Virus record (IMG/VR): IMGVR_UViG_3300036820_000018
Span: 1-64,000 of that record
Origin: a virus
Direction: 5' to 3' (one strand)
Length of the DNA stretch: 64,000 nt
Each line of letters opens with the position of its first letter. Positions within the stretch are counted from its first letter, which is position 1. Positions 3,527 through 47,631 of this stretch are shown here, in pieces. The position numbers were made by a program, and so were the translations under genes. The notes beneath the pieces were generated by a model, which worked only from the letters and a program-made list of their open reading frames with translations, did not search any database and was not told the DNA's origin.

Positions 3527-3782
3527 AGTGCTTCGTGTGCCCCTGTGCGGCCTCTCGTGCCCCTGCTTCGTCGAAGTGCTCACTCCTCGATCCGCAGTCG
3601 AGGCATACCCGTATAGCCCCTTTGCTCGTCTCCCAGAGCAGTTGACGCGCCCCGTTCCTGACCGCGTCCTGAGAGGCAAGCTCGCGAGTCTTGAAGAAAC
3701 ACCGAGCGCTATGGGGAGCCGGTCCGTCGAGGAACAAGTACCACCATCTACGGAAGCTCTCGCGCTTGAGTTGGACGATCAC
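3507..3782 (-). CDS. hypothetical zinc-finger-like protein, 91 residues
   Basis: Unrecognised. ATGA overlap with the upstream gene. The C-terminal half has VCLDCGSRSEHFDE followed by GHTKHCENARG, a CxxC...HxxxC arrangement typical of a small C2HC or C2H2-type zinc finger. Possibly a DNA-binding or regulatory protein. Confidence 0.6.
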   Translation of the reverse strand: MIVQLKRESFRRWWYLFLDGPAPHSARCFFKTRELASQDAVRNGARQLLWETSKGAIRVCLDCGSRSEHFDEAGAREAAQGHTKHCENARG

Positions 3783-41350: not shown

Positions 41351-41704
41351 TCAGTCTGGTGAAATCGTCTTCCAGGGGACCAAAACGGTCGTCGGAGAGT
41401 CGTGCATAATCTGAGCGGTGCCTGCGGAGTTGTCTATCAAGACGGCGACATTGTGCTTTGCGCAATAAGCGGCTTTTGCCTTTCCCGGAGGATTGACAAA
41501 GACCTTCAACTTGTCGTAATGACCTTTCATCCCTAAGCCAGCGAGCTTTTCTTTCTTCATTTTCTTTTCGGCTTTGGTGACCGGTAAAACGTGGCTCCCG
41601 CTTAGCACCGTGACTTTGTGCCCGTGCTTATGAAGCTTTCTCATGAGCTCCCGGATGGCCGGGCTGGAATCGAGCGTGCCATCCAAATCGCACGCAATCT
41701 TCAT
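41351..41704 (-). CDS. HAD-like phosphatase
   Basis: 117 residues. Starts with the catalytic DLDGTLDSS (Asp7, Asp9), then VTVLSGSH (motif II Ser), a Lys-rich cap-like stretch, and AVLIDNSAG (motif IV). Small HAD enzymes remove phosphate from nucleotides or polynucleotide 3' ends. In this genome it lies three genes after an ORF with a 2H phosphoesterase and a Nudix hydrolase, so three phosphate-ester enzymes cluster in the head module. Confidence 0.72.
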   Translation of the reverse strand: MKIACDLDGTLDSSPAIRELMRKLHKHGHKVTVLSGSHVLPVTKAEKKMKKEKLAGLGMKGHYDKLKVFVNPPGKAKAAYCAKHNVAVLIDNSAGTAQIMHDSPTTVLVPWKTISPD

Positions 41705-42045
41705 GGAGTTAGCTCGCCATTAGTGATCCAACCGTGCCAATGTGACCCGTCTCGGTAGGACTGGCCATTCTCATCGACACGCCAGCACTCCACGTCGATC
41801 GAGGGGATGACCGTCAGGTTCGGAGCAGTGCCTGAGACGTCCCACATGCCGTGTGGAGGGGCTGCAGCAGCGTCAGTTGTTCGCCACGAGATCCGACTGG
41901 GAAGACCGGGCTCAATGGGCTTCGTGTTCGGCAGGACGATCCACCAACACTCTCGACCGTCTTTGTCACCGGACTCGTAGCGCCACATCATCCCCGGCTC
42001 TTCGTCCTCAGGAAAAGGTTTGTCGACAATGCGAAGTGCAGTCAT
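41701..42045 (-). CDS. hypothetical protein, 114 residues
   Basis: ATG 42045 in an ATGA overlap with the MuF gene. Trp-rich (MMWRYESGDKDGRECWWIVL, HGMWDVSG, VECWRVDENG, SHWHGWI). Compact beta-fold look. Unrecognised; between MuF and the HAD gene. Confidence 0.6.
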   Translation of the reverse strand: MTALRIVDKPFPEDEEPGMMWRYESGDKDGRECWWIVLPNTKPIEPGLPSRISWRTTDAAAAPPHGMWDVSGTAPNLTVIPSIDVECWRVDENGQSYRDGSHWHGWITNGELTP

Positions 42046-42743
42046 CGCTGGCTCCTGGCCGGCGCGACTGAGCATCGGCACCGAGGGTGGATCGGAGGCA
42101 TCGCTGAAGCGTCCGAGATCGGGTGTGGGTTGGCGTCTTTGATGTCCACGCACACAGGACAGGCTCCGACGTGGTTGAGCAGATCGAACATCGCGATACC
42201 TGCACGCTTAAACAGGTCGACCGAGGCCGTGGTCATGGCCCTGTTGACCTCTGTCCTCGATATCAGGGCCGCTCTGTCAGGGTCATTGATCAGTAGACCG
42301 ATCTGTTCAGCCAACTCGGTGACGTCTGCGTCGGTCCAAGGGACGTGAGCGACCCGTCCGGCGACGAAGGCCTCGACCAGAGAGACGATGAGGTCCCTTG
42401 TGTGGTCAGAGATGCCCTTTATCAGGCCTCCGAGTTGCTGAGAGACGTTCTCGAGGCCCGGAACAGTCCCATGTACCCGTCCGGGTGCCCACGCGGACCA
42501 GTCAACGGCGTTCACGGCGCCTTCGAGGGCGTCCCCAGTGGCCTTCTGAACGCTTACACCGTGTCCAGAGGCATCTTTGGCTCCCGCAAGCCATGAATCG
42601 GCCCACAGACGCTCTAGGGCGGTCCTGAGAGGCCCTGTGTCGAGCGGTATCGAGGCTATGAGGCTCTCGATGACCCCTCCGGGGGTTCCGACTGGGCCTG
42701 TGATCCCTTCGACGCGTTGAGCGATCTGTCTCGGGCGCACCAA
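42042..42743 (-). CDS. MuF-type minor head protein
   Basis: 233 residues from TTG 42743, but the frame is open upstream without a start to the portal gene. SRTEVNRAMTTASVDLFKRA and ACPVCVDIKDANPHPISDAS followed by PPIHPRCRCSV are the hallmarks of the Mu gpF/SPP1 gp7 domain. A -1 frameshift at 42830-42836 would fuse it to the portal polyprotein. MuF proteins sit on the portal and can enter the cell with DNA. Confidence 0.82.
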   Translation of the reverse strand: MVRPRQIAQRVEGITGPVGTPGGVIESLIASIPLDTGPLRTALERLWADSWLAGAKDASGHGVSVQKATGDALEGAVNAVDWSAWAPGRVHGTVPGLENVSQQLGGLIKGISDHTRDLIVSLVEAFVAGRVAHVPWTDADVTELAEQIGLLINDPDRAALISRTEVNRAMTTASVDLFKRAGIAMFDLLNHVGACPVCVDIKDANPHPISDASAMPPIHPRCRCSVAPARSQR

Positions 42744-42820
42744 ACGGCGGATTCCCTTAGCGATCTTGGGCGTGTGGAAGGAAACGAGGTCTTCCTCTCG
42801 ATGTCCGCCCGGCCCGGGCC

Positions 42821-45800
42821 TCAGGACACTTTTGGGCGGTTCACCTCGGCTTTGACGATCATCACCGTGTCGCCGGGTTCTAGGGGCTCAGGGAGGATCA
42901 GACGGCCTGAGTAGTCGATCGTGGCCTTCTGAGCTTGCTCCAGGATTGGCTCTAGGACCTCGAGGCCTTCACGGACCTTGTCGCGGATGACCTTGTCGTC
43001 GAGATCGTCGGTGTCCCACCAAGAGACTGCCGCGATCTCGTCTCCGTCAGGCTCCCCGAGGGAGACATCGTCCTCAGAGTCCGTCGAGTAGACGAAACCC
43101 TGGAAGATCCCGTCGTCTGAGCGCCAGGTGCCAACCATCTTCGCGTCGGTGGGCATCTTGCAGCCCGTCTCTTCGGACCATTCACGCACAGCTGCGTCGT
43201 GAGCCGACTCGCCATCGTCTAAGTGGCCAGCTGGTGTCTCCCAAGAGGCTCCATTACCGTCATCGTCTTTGTTGCCGCGACGGACGAGCAGAACCTTGCC
43301 TGAGTCTCGAGCGACGAGAGCAACTCCAGCGACTTCGGGACCCTTGGAGTCGTGAGCCTTAGCGGCCCCGCCGAAGGCGAAGACCCGGCACTCGTCTCCG
43401 CGGTGGACCGAGAGATGGGTGAAGGTGACAGGCGTGGGCGGGATCGGAGCCGGGAGATCTTCGTTGGAGTCCATGTACGCGAGCGTCATATGCGGATGAA
43501 AGTCGCTGTGCTGGCTCCCGTTGAACTGCTCGAGAGGTCCGCGAAGGGCTTCGATGCCCGGGATCTCGGGCTTAGCCCAAACCGGAATTAGCCAGTCACT
43601 CGACTCAGAAGCAGGGAAGGTACCCCGGCCACCGATAGTGCCTGACATTGGTCCACGCTGGGCGCTCGCGACTCTGGCAGCTACCGCACAGATCTTCTCG
43701 AAGGTGGCGTCATCAGCGATCTTGCCGCAGTAGACGATCGTGATGTGCTGGTCGGGGACCCCATTCTCCATCACCGGGATCAAGCCAGGGGGAACGTCGA
43801 GGGAGACCATCGTTGAGACCGGAGAATGCACCCCAGCCGTTGCCTTAGCGAAGGCCGCGTCAACCTCTTCGCGGGTTGTGGCCTTAGACAGCTCTGTCCA
43901 GACCGCGTCATAGACCCGTGTGGAAATCGCTGAGTTGTCGAAGTGACGCGGGAGGTCGTTCTTGGCGACGCGCTTTTGTGAGGCACGCTTCCAGCGCTTT
44001 AGGTCGAGCTTCTCTTCGATCTCGTCTTCAGGATCGTCGGGGTCCTCTGCGTAGTGAGCGCCCGCGATACCTGTCGCGATCCCGATCCCAGCGGTTGCCT
44101 CTTTAAGAGTCCTTCTCGACGCCGTTCCCTGATCTACGCGTCCGGGGGCTGCGGACCCGCGCGGTCTGGCGGGATTGGACCCGTTGGACGCGGCGGGCTT
44201 CTTTGCGCCCACTAGCGGTGCGGTCGGTGCTGGAGTTAGTGGGCCGGGGCCGAGTGGCCCCCCCACTTTTGGGCGTGCCGGGACCTTTCGCCCAGCGGCC
44301 GTGTCGTGCTGCCTCGCCTGGCTGTAGGCAGGAGGACCTGGAGCATCGGGATCTGGGCCCGGGGTGCCGGGAAGGACGAGCTCGATCGGCCGAACGGTCC
44401 CTGGACGTGGGGCTCCGGTCAAGGGGTCCACGTCTCCCGCGACACCGAGCAGGTAAGAGATCGGGATCGGGCCGAGGCGGTTCGAGTCGAAGAACCTCGG
44501 CACCTTCTCCTCGGGATTGATCGGGTAACCCAGGACCTTGTCTCTGACTTCGTCAGGAGACTCTGCGCCGATCGAGACGTAGATCTGGTGAGACTGCGCC
44601 TCCATGAGGCGGTCTTCCTTCTCGCGACCGGTGTCGAAGCGGAGCTGCACCGGGAGACCGAGGTCCTCCTGGGTGATCGCGTCCATGATGTCTTCGTAGT
44701 AGCCGACGTGGGGAAGTGAGTTGATCCTGAACTGCGTGTCCATCTGGGTGTCAGAGGTGCTGCGGTTCACGTCGTCGGTGAAGCCGAGGTCCTGGGGCAT
44801 CATCATGAATGCACCTGTAGTCCGGCGCATCACGTACTCAGCGATGTCAGGGTCGAACTGCTGCGGCTTGTAAAACTCGATCTCGGTGCCGTGAGGCAGC
44901 CATCTGAGCCCCCAGCGCTCTGACTGGTCCCCGTAGGTCCAGTCGTTGTAGTCCTCTTGCCATTCAGCAAGAGAGTCAGGGTCTGACTGGTCCTCGGGAG
45001 CCATCGCGAAGGCCTCAGGGACGTTGCCCGTGGTGAAGAACTGCAAGAAGTAGGTCTGGAGGCGCAGGTCGGTGTTCGCGTTGACCAGGACCGTCTCGAT
45101 CGGTGCGATGCCATAGGGGTCCTCTGTATGAGGCCACATGGGCTCGTAGATCAGGTCCTCAGATCTCAGCCAGTCCCAGGGGATTCCTTGGATGAACTGC
45201 TGGAAGGCCGGAGCCTCGCCGATCGGCTCTGCACCGAAGTAGTCAAGCATCGGGGCGAAGAGCGTCCCGTCGGCTACAGGCAGGCTGATCAGGCGACCTG
45301 CGCGATCACGCTGACGGTAAAGGGTCCCGCAATCGAAGCGCCAGACGTCGGTCGCGTGCTTGCAGAGCCAGTTACGAAGCGTGTTGCCCGAGCCCGCGAT
45401 CACCTTGCCCGACTCAGGGTCGAGCCTCTTGTCGGGGCGACGCCAGAACTCTTTAGCGGCCGCGATCTCTTTGACGCAGTTCTCCTCGTACCCGTCCATG
45501 ACCTCGAAGCGCACTCGCATCGAGCGGAGGTCTTGGATCGCGTGGCGGTAGCAGATGGTCGCCACGTCGTAGGAGGTGATCAGGTGCCGGATCGTCTCGA
45601 AAGGCATCCGGCCAGGGCGCGTCTGGGTCGAGATGTTGCGCCCGGTGTCGTAGTCGCGCTCTCTCGGCCTGCGATTGTAACCGAAGTACGGGGTCAGTGG
45701 CCTGCCTGGGGCAAATGGCGAGACCCAGTCAATGCCCTGCTCGTGCAGAGCGTTTTCGATCTCGATCGGGGTGATCGTGGACCCCGAGGGATTGATCGAG

Positions 45801-46057: not shown

Positions 46058-47631
46058 TAGCCCACCTTTACGGGAGGTGCGACCTCCTCGGGACTTGCTT
46101 GACACCACACGCAGTAGGTGCGATCGGGATTCCAGCGGTGGTCACAGATCATCCGAGCACGCTTGCGCTCTGAACGAACGCCTTGGCGACGACGGGCCAT
46201 CCGGCGCTCCATGCGAGCCTTGTCATCGAGGATCGCCTCCTCACCTCGATGCTCTAAGCGCTGGGCTGCGTCACGTTCCATGAACTCTCTGAAGTTCGCC
46301 CCGACTCCACCTTCGGAGGTGATGAGGAGGTAGCATCCCATCCCGATGGTGACCGCTTGGTCGTCGTGACCACCTCTTGTGTGATCGAGGCGTGTGACAC
46401 CTGGGGAGGACTCTTTGAGCTTTAGGGCGAGAAGCTCTTCTTTCAACTCTCGAGTGTTCGGGATGAAGATTTGGCGGTTCCTGAAGGTGCTCGTGAGAGC
46501 GCTCGCGACCTCACCGACTGAGGAGGCCGTGAACTTGAACTCTTTGGCCCGCACGCCTCTGCGGTTGAGACGCTGCACCCCGTCAACGAACTGCTGAGGG
46601 TCGGCGTGAGCGTGTGCCCGGTTGTACCGAAAGGATGCCTCGACGATCCAGTCAACCACCCTGTCGATCTGAACGGGCTTCTTCTTCGATCCCCTCCAGC
46701 GCTCGACGTGGTCGACGACGACGCGCTTGGGACCTCTCGGGGCCTTGGGGTCGTAGGGCTCCTTGTGCATGATCGTCATGACCGTGGCGTCGTTCACCAC
46801 ACCGATGTCAACGAGGATTATGTACTTAACGCCCTTTTGCGGATCGAGGGTCGTATACGGCTGAGCGGCTGCTTCCCAGTCCTCTTCGCGGATAGCTGCG
46901 TCTTCGTCCTCTGACCAGAGGTTGAGGACCAGGCGGTCGTATTCAGAGGGACGAAGCTGGAAGCGCAATGAAGCGAGCTCGTCGGGACTCAGCCAAGGGA
47001 CCGGGCCGGGGACTTCGTGGACTCGCCACATCTTGTCCACCGAGCACTTGTCGATGACCTCTTTGGACCAGTGAGAAGGCTCGCCGGCCGAGCTCATCAC
47101 CACGAGCTTGCAGTTAGGGACCTTCGGAGCAGCTGATTGGAGGGCCGACCATACGCGTCGCGCTCCACGAGTGTCTGGCCACTGACAGAACTCGTCAGCT
47201 ACTAAGAAGTGAGCGTCGCGCAGGCCCCAGGACCCTGAGTCTGACTGGGCCAGGACGCGGATCCATGCGCCGTTCGGAGCAACGATGCGCTGGCTCTCGA
47301 CGATGATCGCACCTTCGAGCTCTTCGGTACGGGCTACAAAGCCCGCTGCGGCGTCGATGATGATCGCGGCCTGATTAGTCGAGGCAGCGACGATGTGACC
47401 GTTAGCGAGGGGCCTGGCGTCTGTCATGAGCCAGGAGAGGCCGAGACCAGCGATGTCCGTCGATTTTGAGGCACCTCTTGCTCGGGTGAGGAAGTGCCAC
47501 GTCGCTGCGGGGCGCTCGTTTAAGAGGATGGCTTCGGCGTCGGTCTTCTGGAAGGACCTCGCTACCTCACCCCAGCGGTCTCCGGTTTCGACCCGGAGCC
47601 CATACATGAGGTCTAGGGCGCCCTCACTCAC
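46057..47631 (-). CDS. terL: terminase large subunit
   Basis: 524 residues. ATPase: LTRARGASKSTD (Walker A variant), HFLVADEFCQW (Walker B with Asp-Glu) and a VVMSSAGE coupling motif. Nuclease: ILVDIGVVNDAT (first Asp), AHADPQQFVDG and THTR-like DHTRGGHDDQAV (last Asp pair). The C-terminus adds CDHRWNPDRTYCVWCQ, a likely zinc knuckle. Pumps DNA into the prohead and cuts it. GTGA-type overlap with the small subunit gene. Confidence 0.92.
   Translation of the reverse strand: MSEGALDLMYGLRVETGDRWGEVARSFQKTDAEAILLNERPAATWHFLTRARGASKSTDIAGLGLSWLMTDARPLANGHIVAASTNQAAIIIDAAAGFVARTEELEGAIIVESQRIVAPNGAWIRVLAQSDSGSWGLRDAHFLVADEFCQWPDTRGARRVWSALQSAAPKVPNCKLVVMSSAGEPSHWSKEVIDKCSVDKMWRVHEVPGPVPWLSPDELASLRFQLRPSEYDRLVLNLWSEDEDAAIREEDWEAAAQPYTTLDPQKGVKYIILVDIGVVNDATVMTIMHKEPYDPKAPRGPKRVVVDHVERWRGSKKKPVQIDRVVDWIVEASFRYNRAHAHADPQQFVDGVQRLNRRGVRAKEFKFTASSVGEVASALTSTFRNRQIFIPNTRELKEELLALKLKESSPGVTRLDHTRGGHDDQAVTIGMGCYLLITSEGGVGANFREFMERDAAQRLEHRGEEAILDDKARMERRMARRRQGVRSERKRARMICDHRWNPDRTYCVWCQASPEEVAPPVKVG

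Follow-up and report, generated by a model that had tools for sequence, protein, structure and literature searches.

A putative −1 frameshift site between the portal and MuF coding regions of an IMG/VR virus and its relatives

The portal and MuF coding regions and their junction

The window analysed here is a stretch of 64,000 nucleotides (positions 1 to 64,000 of IMG/VR record IMGVR_UViG_3300036820_000018) and makes up nearly the whole of the 64,671-base virus record. On its minus strand, a long open reading frame (ORF) with portal, 2H and Nudix domains is followed by a MuF coding region in the −1 frame. The features of the locus are as follows:

46108-42821, minus: portal-2H-Nudix zero-frame ORF, first GTG at 46108, stop TGA at 42823-42821
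about 45166-44537, minus: portal, Pfam stretch (phrog_2662, E 3.3e-20; PF04860, E 3.2e-6, below the curated cut-off)
44273-44267, minus: putative slip site A, the second CCCAAAA in phase, 254 nt beyond the portal core
44266-44239, minus: hairpin directly downstream of site A, with a GGGGCC-ACTC-GGCCCC stem
about 43747-43454, minus: 2H/2'-5' RNA ligase-like domain (PF13563, slightly under the curated cut-off)
about 43330-42998, minus: Nudix domain (PF00293, E 6e-19)
42847-42841, minus: SD-like GAGGTGA, candidate stimulator, predicted anti-SD pairing −10.2 kcal/mol
42836-42830, minus: putative slip site B, heptamer CCCAAAA in the canonical phase C_CCA_AAA, kept in relatives L232 and L233
42830-42042, minus: MuF coding region in the −1 frame, codons 42830-42045, stop 42044-42042, with predicted entry by slippage
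42829-42801, minus: downstream GC hairpin, inner stem 42819-42815/42811-42807, outer stem 42829-42824/42806-42801
42743-42741, minus: TTG, first candidate start in the MuF frame, with TAAGG 11 nt upstream

The true start of the portal ORF may lie downstream of GTG 46108. The MuF frame matched minor head/MuF profiles of PHROGs, namely phrog_115 (E 5.5e-12) and others, and both marks of MuF/SPP1 gp7-like membership were present, a profile match and the conserved HPxCRC end. No Pfam match below 0.001 was obtained for the window MuF protein itself; its relatives do match PF04233. A PDB fold search with the model of the window MuF gave no significant match. The portal family phrog_2662 (717 positions) matched both halves, portal and MuF, and the portal-MuF fusion is therefore already contained in a public family. 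The branch of the window MuF (42042-42830) was very long (2.41) compared with an ordinary one for the portal (0.18), which suggests fast change or replacement of the window MuF relative to its portal.

Slip site B is followed by GTG TCC TGA, so that six bases (GTGTCC) separate the heptamer from the portal stop, and the position and phase given for this heptamer in the earlier note proved exact. The MuF frame lies at −1 relative to the portal and is open from stop to stop between 42887 and 42042 (minus strand). It holds no ATG, GTG or TTG before TTG 42743, which lies 87 bases past the slip site and 77 bases past the portal stop, confirming the earlier claim that the frame is open for 77 bases before any usable start. 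The bare motif CCCAAAA is not rare, as the window contains two copies with 3.1 expected; it is the phase and place of slip site B, rather than the motif, that are beyond chance, and a chance occurrence was ruled out by the statistics of phase and place given below. An exact-junction scan found no other assembly with the junction of the window.

Two candidate stimulators flank the heptamer. The short GC hairpin that had been noticed about 9-10 bases downstream was recovered, its inner stem starting 10 nt after the heptamer; the predicted fold reaches −19.1 kcal/mol in 45 nt, with a modest z of −1.13. The 60 nt downstream folded better on average than controls (mean z −0.74 vs. −0.16, p 0.002), the single z-scores being modest. 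Upstream, anti-SD pairing was calculated for the 17 nt ending 3 nt before the heptamer, with in-frame stretches of the same genes as controls. The median was −8.55 kcal/mol in the junction set vs. −3.3 kcal/mol in the controls (p 3e-12), although not every member of the set has the SD-like element.

Slippery heptamers and frame polarity among relatives

Relatives were gathered from IMG/VR and one bacterial MAG by alignment-based scans with the portal core and MuF that used peptide patterns far from the junction, with the heptamer ignored. In viral_contigs, relatives escaped scans that relied on the window proteins only and were found through alignments with the Arthrobacter phages Sonali and Mufasa8. 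A heptamer was counted if it had the form XXX(AAA or TTT)N, in phase and within −70 to +20 nt of the MuF start. In this way, an in-phase slippery heptamer was found at the MuF junction in 29 of 39 non-redundant loci with portal and MuF, vs. 0.56 expected, the background being 18 in-phase heptamers per 37,592 codons of the same ORFs (binomial P about 1.6e-45, uncorrected for kinship). In L009 and L060 the heptamer precedes the detected MuF start by a longer distance, and these two loci were left out of the 29. Six further loci came from an AAAA-anchored pattern scan, which was biased and returned mostly chance matches, and these serve as illustrations only.

The junction motif was CCCAAAA in most loci and GGGAAAA, CCCTTTT or CCCTTTA in others, encoding PK, GK, PF and PL, respectively. 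Because these four motifs encode different dipeptides, it is the slipperiness that is conserved and not the peptide. In the same ORFs, CCA makes up 7.7% of the proline codons and AAA 20% of the lysine codons. In the nearest relative, L232 (portal identity 83%), the site, a stop within a few codons and the −1 MuF frame are all retained, and L233 keeps the slip site and the −1 MuF frame. Conservation of the heptamer and of the upstream MuF frame, proposed in the earlier note as a check, was thus observed in relatives including these two. The next-nearest relatives L030 and L067, which are fused, and L011 have no heptamer at the junction; it was also absent from the junction of the more distant isolates THSA-485A, Polewnik and MMB025, in which portal and MuF are in frame. 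In the more distant clade of L069, L090, L094, L101 and L102, the sequence following the heptamer (GCGCTAAGCGGGACTGGCCCGGCTGGCAG) has hardly changed, suggesting a two-frame or RNA-structure constraint.

The relatives fall into two polarities. In the window and in L008, L010, L014, L020, L032, L187, L214, L232 and L233, the zero frame stops and the −1 frame enters MuF. In most of the relatives, Sonali and Mufasa8 among them, a single ORF spans portal and MuF and the −1 frame soon meets a stop, after a median of 5 codons in the fused loci (n = 23) vs. 32 at background positions (p about 1e-8). The CCCAAAA of these two phages is in phase, as AAC CCA AAA in Sonali and TTC CCA AAA in Mufasa8, with the −1 stop nine codons on. 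Since the −1 stop is so close in the fused loci, most members of the group resemble dnaX, with a slip expected to give the short form. Mapping the split-with-heptamer state onto the portal-core tree required a minimum of five changes, each imposed by well-supported branches, with the site persisting throughout; the weaker MuF tree gave four changes of polarity.

Among overlapping portal/MuF pairs at a −1 offset (n = 31), a heptamer was present in all 11 pairs in which MuF lacks a start and in none of the 20 in which it has one. The partition is clean and takes in the further heptamer-bearing clade of L069, L090, L094, L101 and L102; its Fisher p of 1e-8 overstates independence, because the 20 start-bearing pairs form one clade of the MuF tree. 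Relatives with an independent MuF start and no heptamer, which the earlier note had named as evidence against slippage, were found only in this separate, more distant clade of start-bearing pairs. In L014 and L232, a GTG overlapping the portal stop could start MuF.

An in-phase heptamer also occurs 230-260 nt past the portal core in the window, L030, L067, L232 and L233, as CCCAAAA in four of them and GGGAAAG in L030, and at this place in no other of about 40 relatives. L030 and L067 keep it though they have no junction heptamer. In the window this is site A, whose hairpin has a predicted energy of −21.8 kcal/mol in 40 nt (z −2.17), and a −1 slip there would be followed by 54 further codons and a stop, resulting in a short portal. 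Judging from these sequence features, the window probably has a second slip site at 44273-44267 giving a portal without 2H, Nudix or MuF. This second heptamer and the reversed polarity of most relatives go beyond what the earlier note had recorded.

Probable frameshifting at the junction and alternative explanations

The earlier proposal of a −1 slip into MuF is strongly supported by the heptamers of the relatives, their phase, the −1 frame and the lack of starts, and further by homology ahead of TTG 42743, a confidently predicted helix and the SD-like upstream element. We consider it very probable that a programmed −1 frameshift site lies between portal and MuF, yielding portal subunits with and without MuF. 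Most ribosomes would read portal-2H-Nudix and terminate at 42823, and a fraction would shift their tRNA pairing on CCCAAAA from CCA/AAA to CCC/AAA and read on into MuF in the −1 frame, the product being portal-2H-Nudix-MuF. The relatives with one ORF would reach the same end with reversed polarity, the slip yielding the short form, and a one-base indel behind the slip site would be expected to swap the default while keeping both products.

The best of the alternatives, which we nevertheless regard as improbable, is that MuF is a separate protein, whose translation begins at TTG 42743 or restarts beyond the portal stop, with an incidental heptamer. The TTG has a plausible ribosome-binding site (TAAGG upstream), the distant clade starts MuF with its own codon, and GTGA overlaps occur in L014 and L232. 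However, the TTG is not conserved in L232, where it is ATC, and the MuF sequence ahead of it is protein-like, as the earlier note had held. An HMM built without the window aligned to the MuF frame beginning at codon 6 past the slip, 23 codons ahead of the TTG, and the near-invariant proline of the HYAP motif falls in this stretch. A helix with pLDDT of about 95 was predicted at MuF-frame residues 9-28, wholly ahead of the TTG (residue 30), so that according to the model a start there would remove the first MuF helix, which is homologous to that of all relatives. Between the slip and the TTG, L232 and the window differ in 24 codons, of which 11 are synonymous changes in the MuF frame. Moreover, in L008, L010, L020, L032 and L214 the first possible start comes 36-52 codons past the slip, within the domain, and separate initiation leaves the heptamer of the one-ORF relatives unexplained.

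It is still less probable that the split reflects faulty sequencing or assembly, or a mutation that disabled a true single ORF. The close relatives L030 and L067 and many others do have one ORF, and a few loci (L019, L060 and L233) look broken. In contrast, the −1 split recurs in L232, L233, L008, L010, L014, L020, L032, L187 and L214 and again in the clade of L069, L090, L094, L101 and L102, each with an in-phase heptamer; errors would not seek out a heptamer, and L232 shares site, nearby stop and frame with the window at 83% portal identity. That the heptamer is kept for its peptide (xPK) or as a DNA motif is hardly credible, since the recurrent DA(G)PKG-like context stands against four heptamers with different dipeptides, retention of the rare codons CCA and AAA, close −1 stops in the fused members and the SD-like element upstream.

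Portal rings are treated as twelve identical subunits, and a frameshift kept at the portal/MuF border implies a need for mixed subunits, with and without MuF. If both portal forms enter one dodecameric portal ring, the slip rate would set the number of MuF copies hanging inside the head; mixed subunits would explain the loading of few MuF copies and offer a genetic handle on MuF number. The polarity has been swapped repeatedly, a natural experiment that suggests selection on having both products and not on the default. With less assurance than for the frameshift site itself, we lean toward a broader reading, in which a large phage group sets MuF number on the 12-subunit portal ring by −1 frameshifting, the default frame having been swapped repeatedly so that the slip either adds MuF or removes it, and in which the window phage would draw three portal forms from one gene through two slip sites. 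By analogy, the mixed ring would fit phage SPP1, in which gp7, the MuF protein, attaches to the portal and is taken into the procapsid at low copy number (PMC6316719); unlike in the window, gp6 (portal) and gp7 are separate genes there, with no frameshift reported at this place.

Relation to known systems and further observations

The earlier note had taken the four-domain fusion to be new, and this holds only in part. A single ORF already encodes portal-Nudix-MuF in Sonali (995 aa) and Mufasa8 (1000 aa), where the annotation reads portal or 'portal and MuF-like fusion'; what the window adds is the 2H domain and the predicted frameshift. These two ORFs are homologous to that of the window, with the domains joined in the same way and CCCAAAA in phase at the same site, but the 2H domain is missing and the annotation is of a plain fusion without reported frameshift. 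One-ORF genes of such cultured phages may hide a second product missed by annotation. Portal-MuF fusions have been published for Microbacterium clusters EA3/EA5/EA8/EB (PMC7302621), and in a frameshift predictor paper, VIP2 and MuF-like genes receive no more than a mention among the predictions without annotation (PMC10885494). We found no report of a portal-MuF frameshift or of polarity reversals in the open-licence literature searched.

In dnaX (tau/gamma), a slippery heptamer is accompanied by an upstream SD-like element and a downstream hairpin, and the slip gives the short form. The portal-MuF junction has a slippery heptamer, an SD-like element upstream and a predicted hairpin downstream as a candidate stimulator, and in genes of the Sonali type the slip would likewise give the short form at a close −1 stop; the differences are that this is a phage head gene and that the slip in the window would make the long form. 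The lambda gpG/gpGT tail assembly chaperone has a conserved −1 slip that yields a shorter and a longer protein in fixed proportion (Xu et al., 2004, as cited in PMC7911831). The portal-MuF junction resembles it in having a conserved −1 slippery site within a structural gene of a phage, but the gene here is the portal, a virion component, the extension is MuF, the slip would shorten the product in most portal-MuF relatives, and there is no tail-chaperone homology. The portal/MuF pair also adjoins the terminase, whereas a lambda-type chaperone pair would lie just upstream of the tape measure gene, here at 30146-26838. The ORFs before the tape measure gene of the window (31367-30804 and 30622-30146) do not overlap and have no canonical heptamer, so that a lambda-type tail chaperone frameshift is not evident.

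Bacterial −1 frameshift sites of the IS3/IS1 families and others belong to the same X_XXZ_ZZN motif class, with a different gene and purpose, and the portal-MuF sites that encode lysine terminate in AAAA, not AAAG. In Escherichia coli, C_CC.A_AA.A and G_GG.A_AA.A fall in the efficient, shift-prone V_VV.A_AA.R class; C_CC.U_UU.U belongs to the H_HH.U_UU.Y class, and slippage at C_CC.U_UU.A exceeds 0.1% even when stimulators are absent (PMC4066793). Older work, as cited in the introduction of that paper, described G_GG.A_AA.A as poor in E. coli.

Several observations stand apart. A portal end reading CGC CCA TGA possibly reflects a +1 recoding event or another expression mode. In L019 (5000-5480) and L060 (2257-2700), the zero frame holds the beginning of MuF after the portal and then a stop, with the remaining MuF in another ORF, which may be a broken gene, an error or inserted sequence. 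L233 (2618-3703) carries a tandem pair of Nudix domains. The second runs on in the −1 frame of the portal ORF and precedes slip site B at 3655, with no canonical heptamer listed at the inner frame change. In the window, a small ORF between the MuF and capsid genes (41351-41704) had no PHROGs match and begins MKIACDLDGTLDSSP, an HAD-phosphatase-like start.
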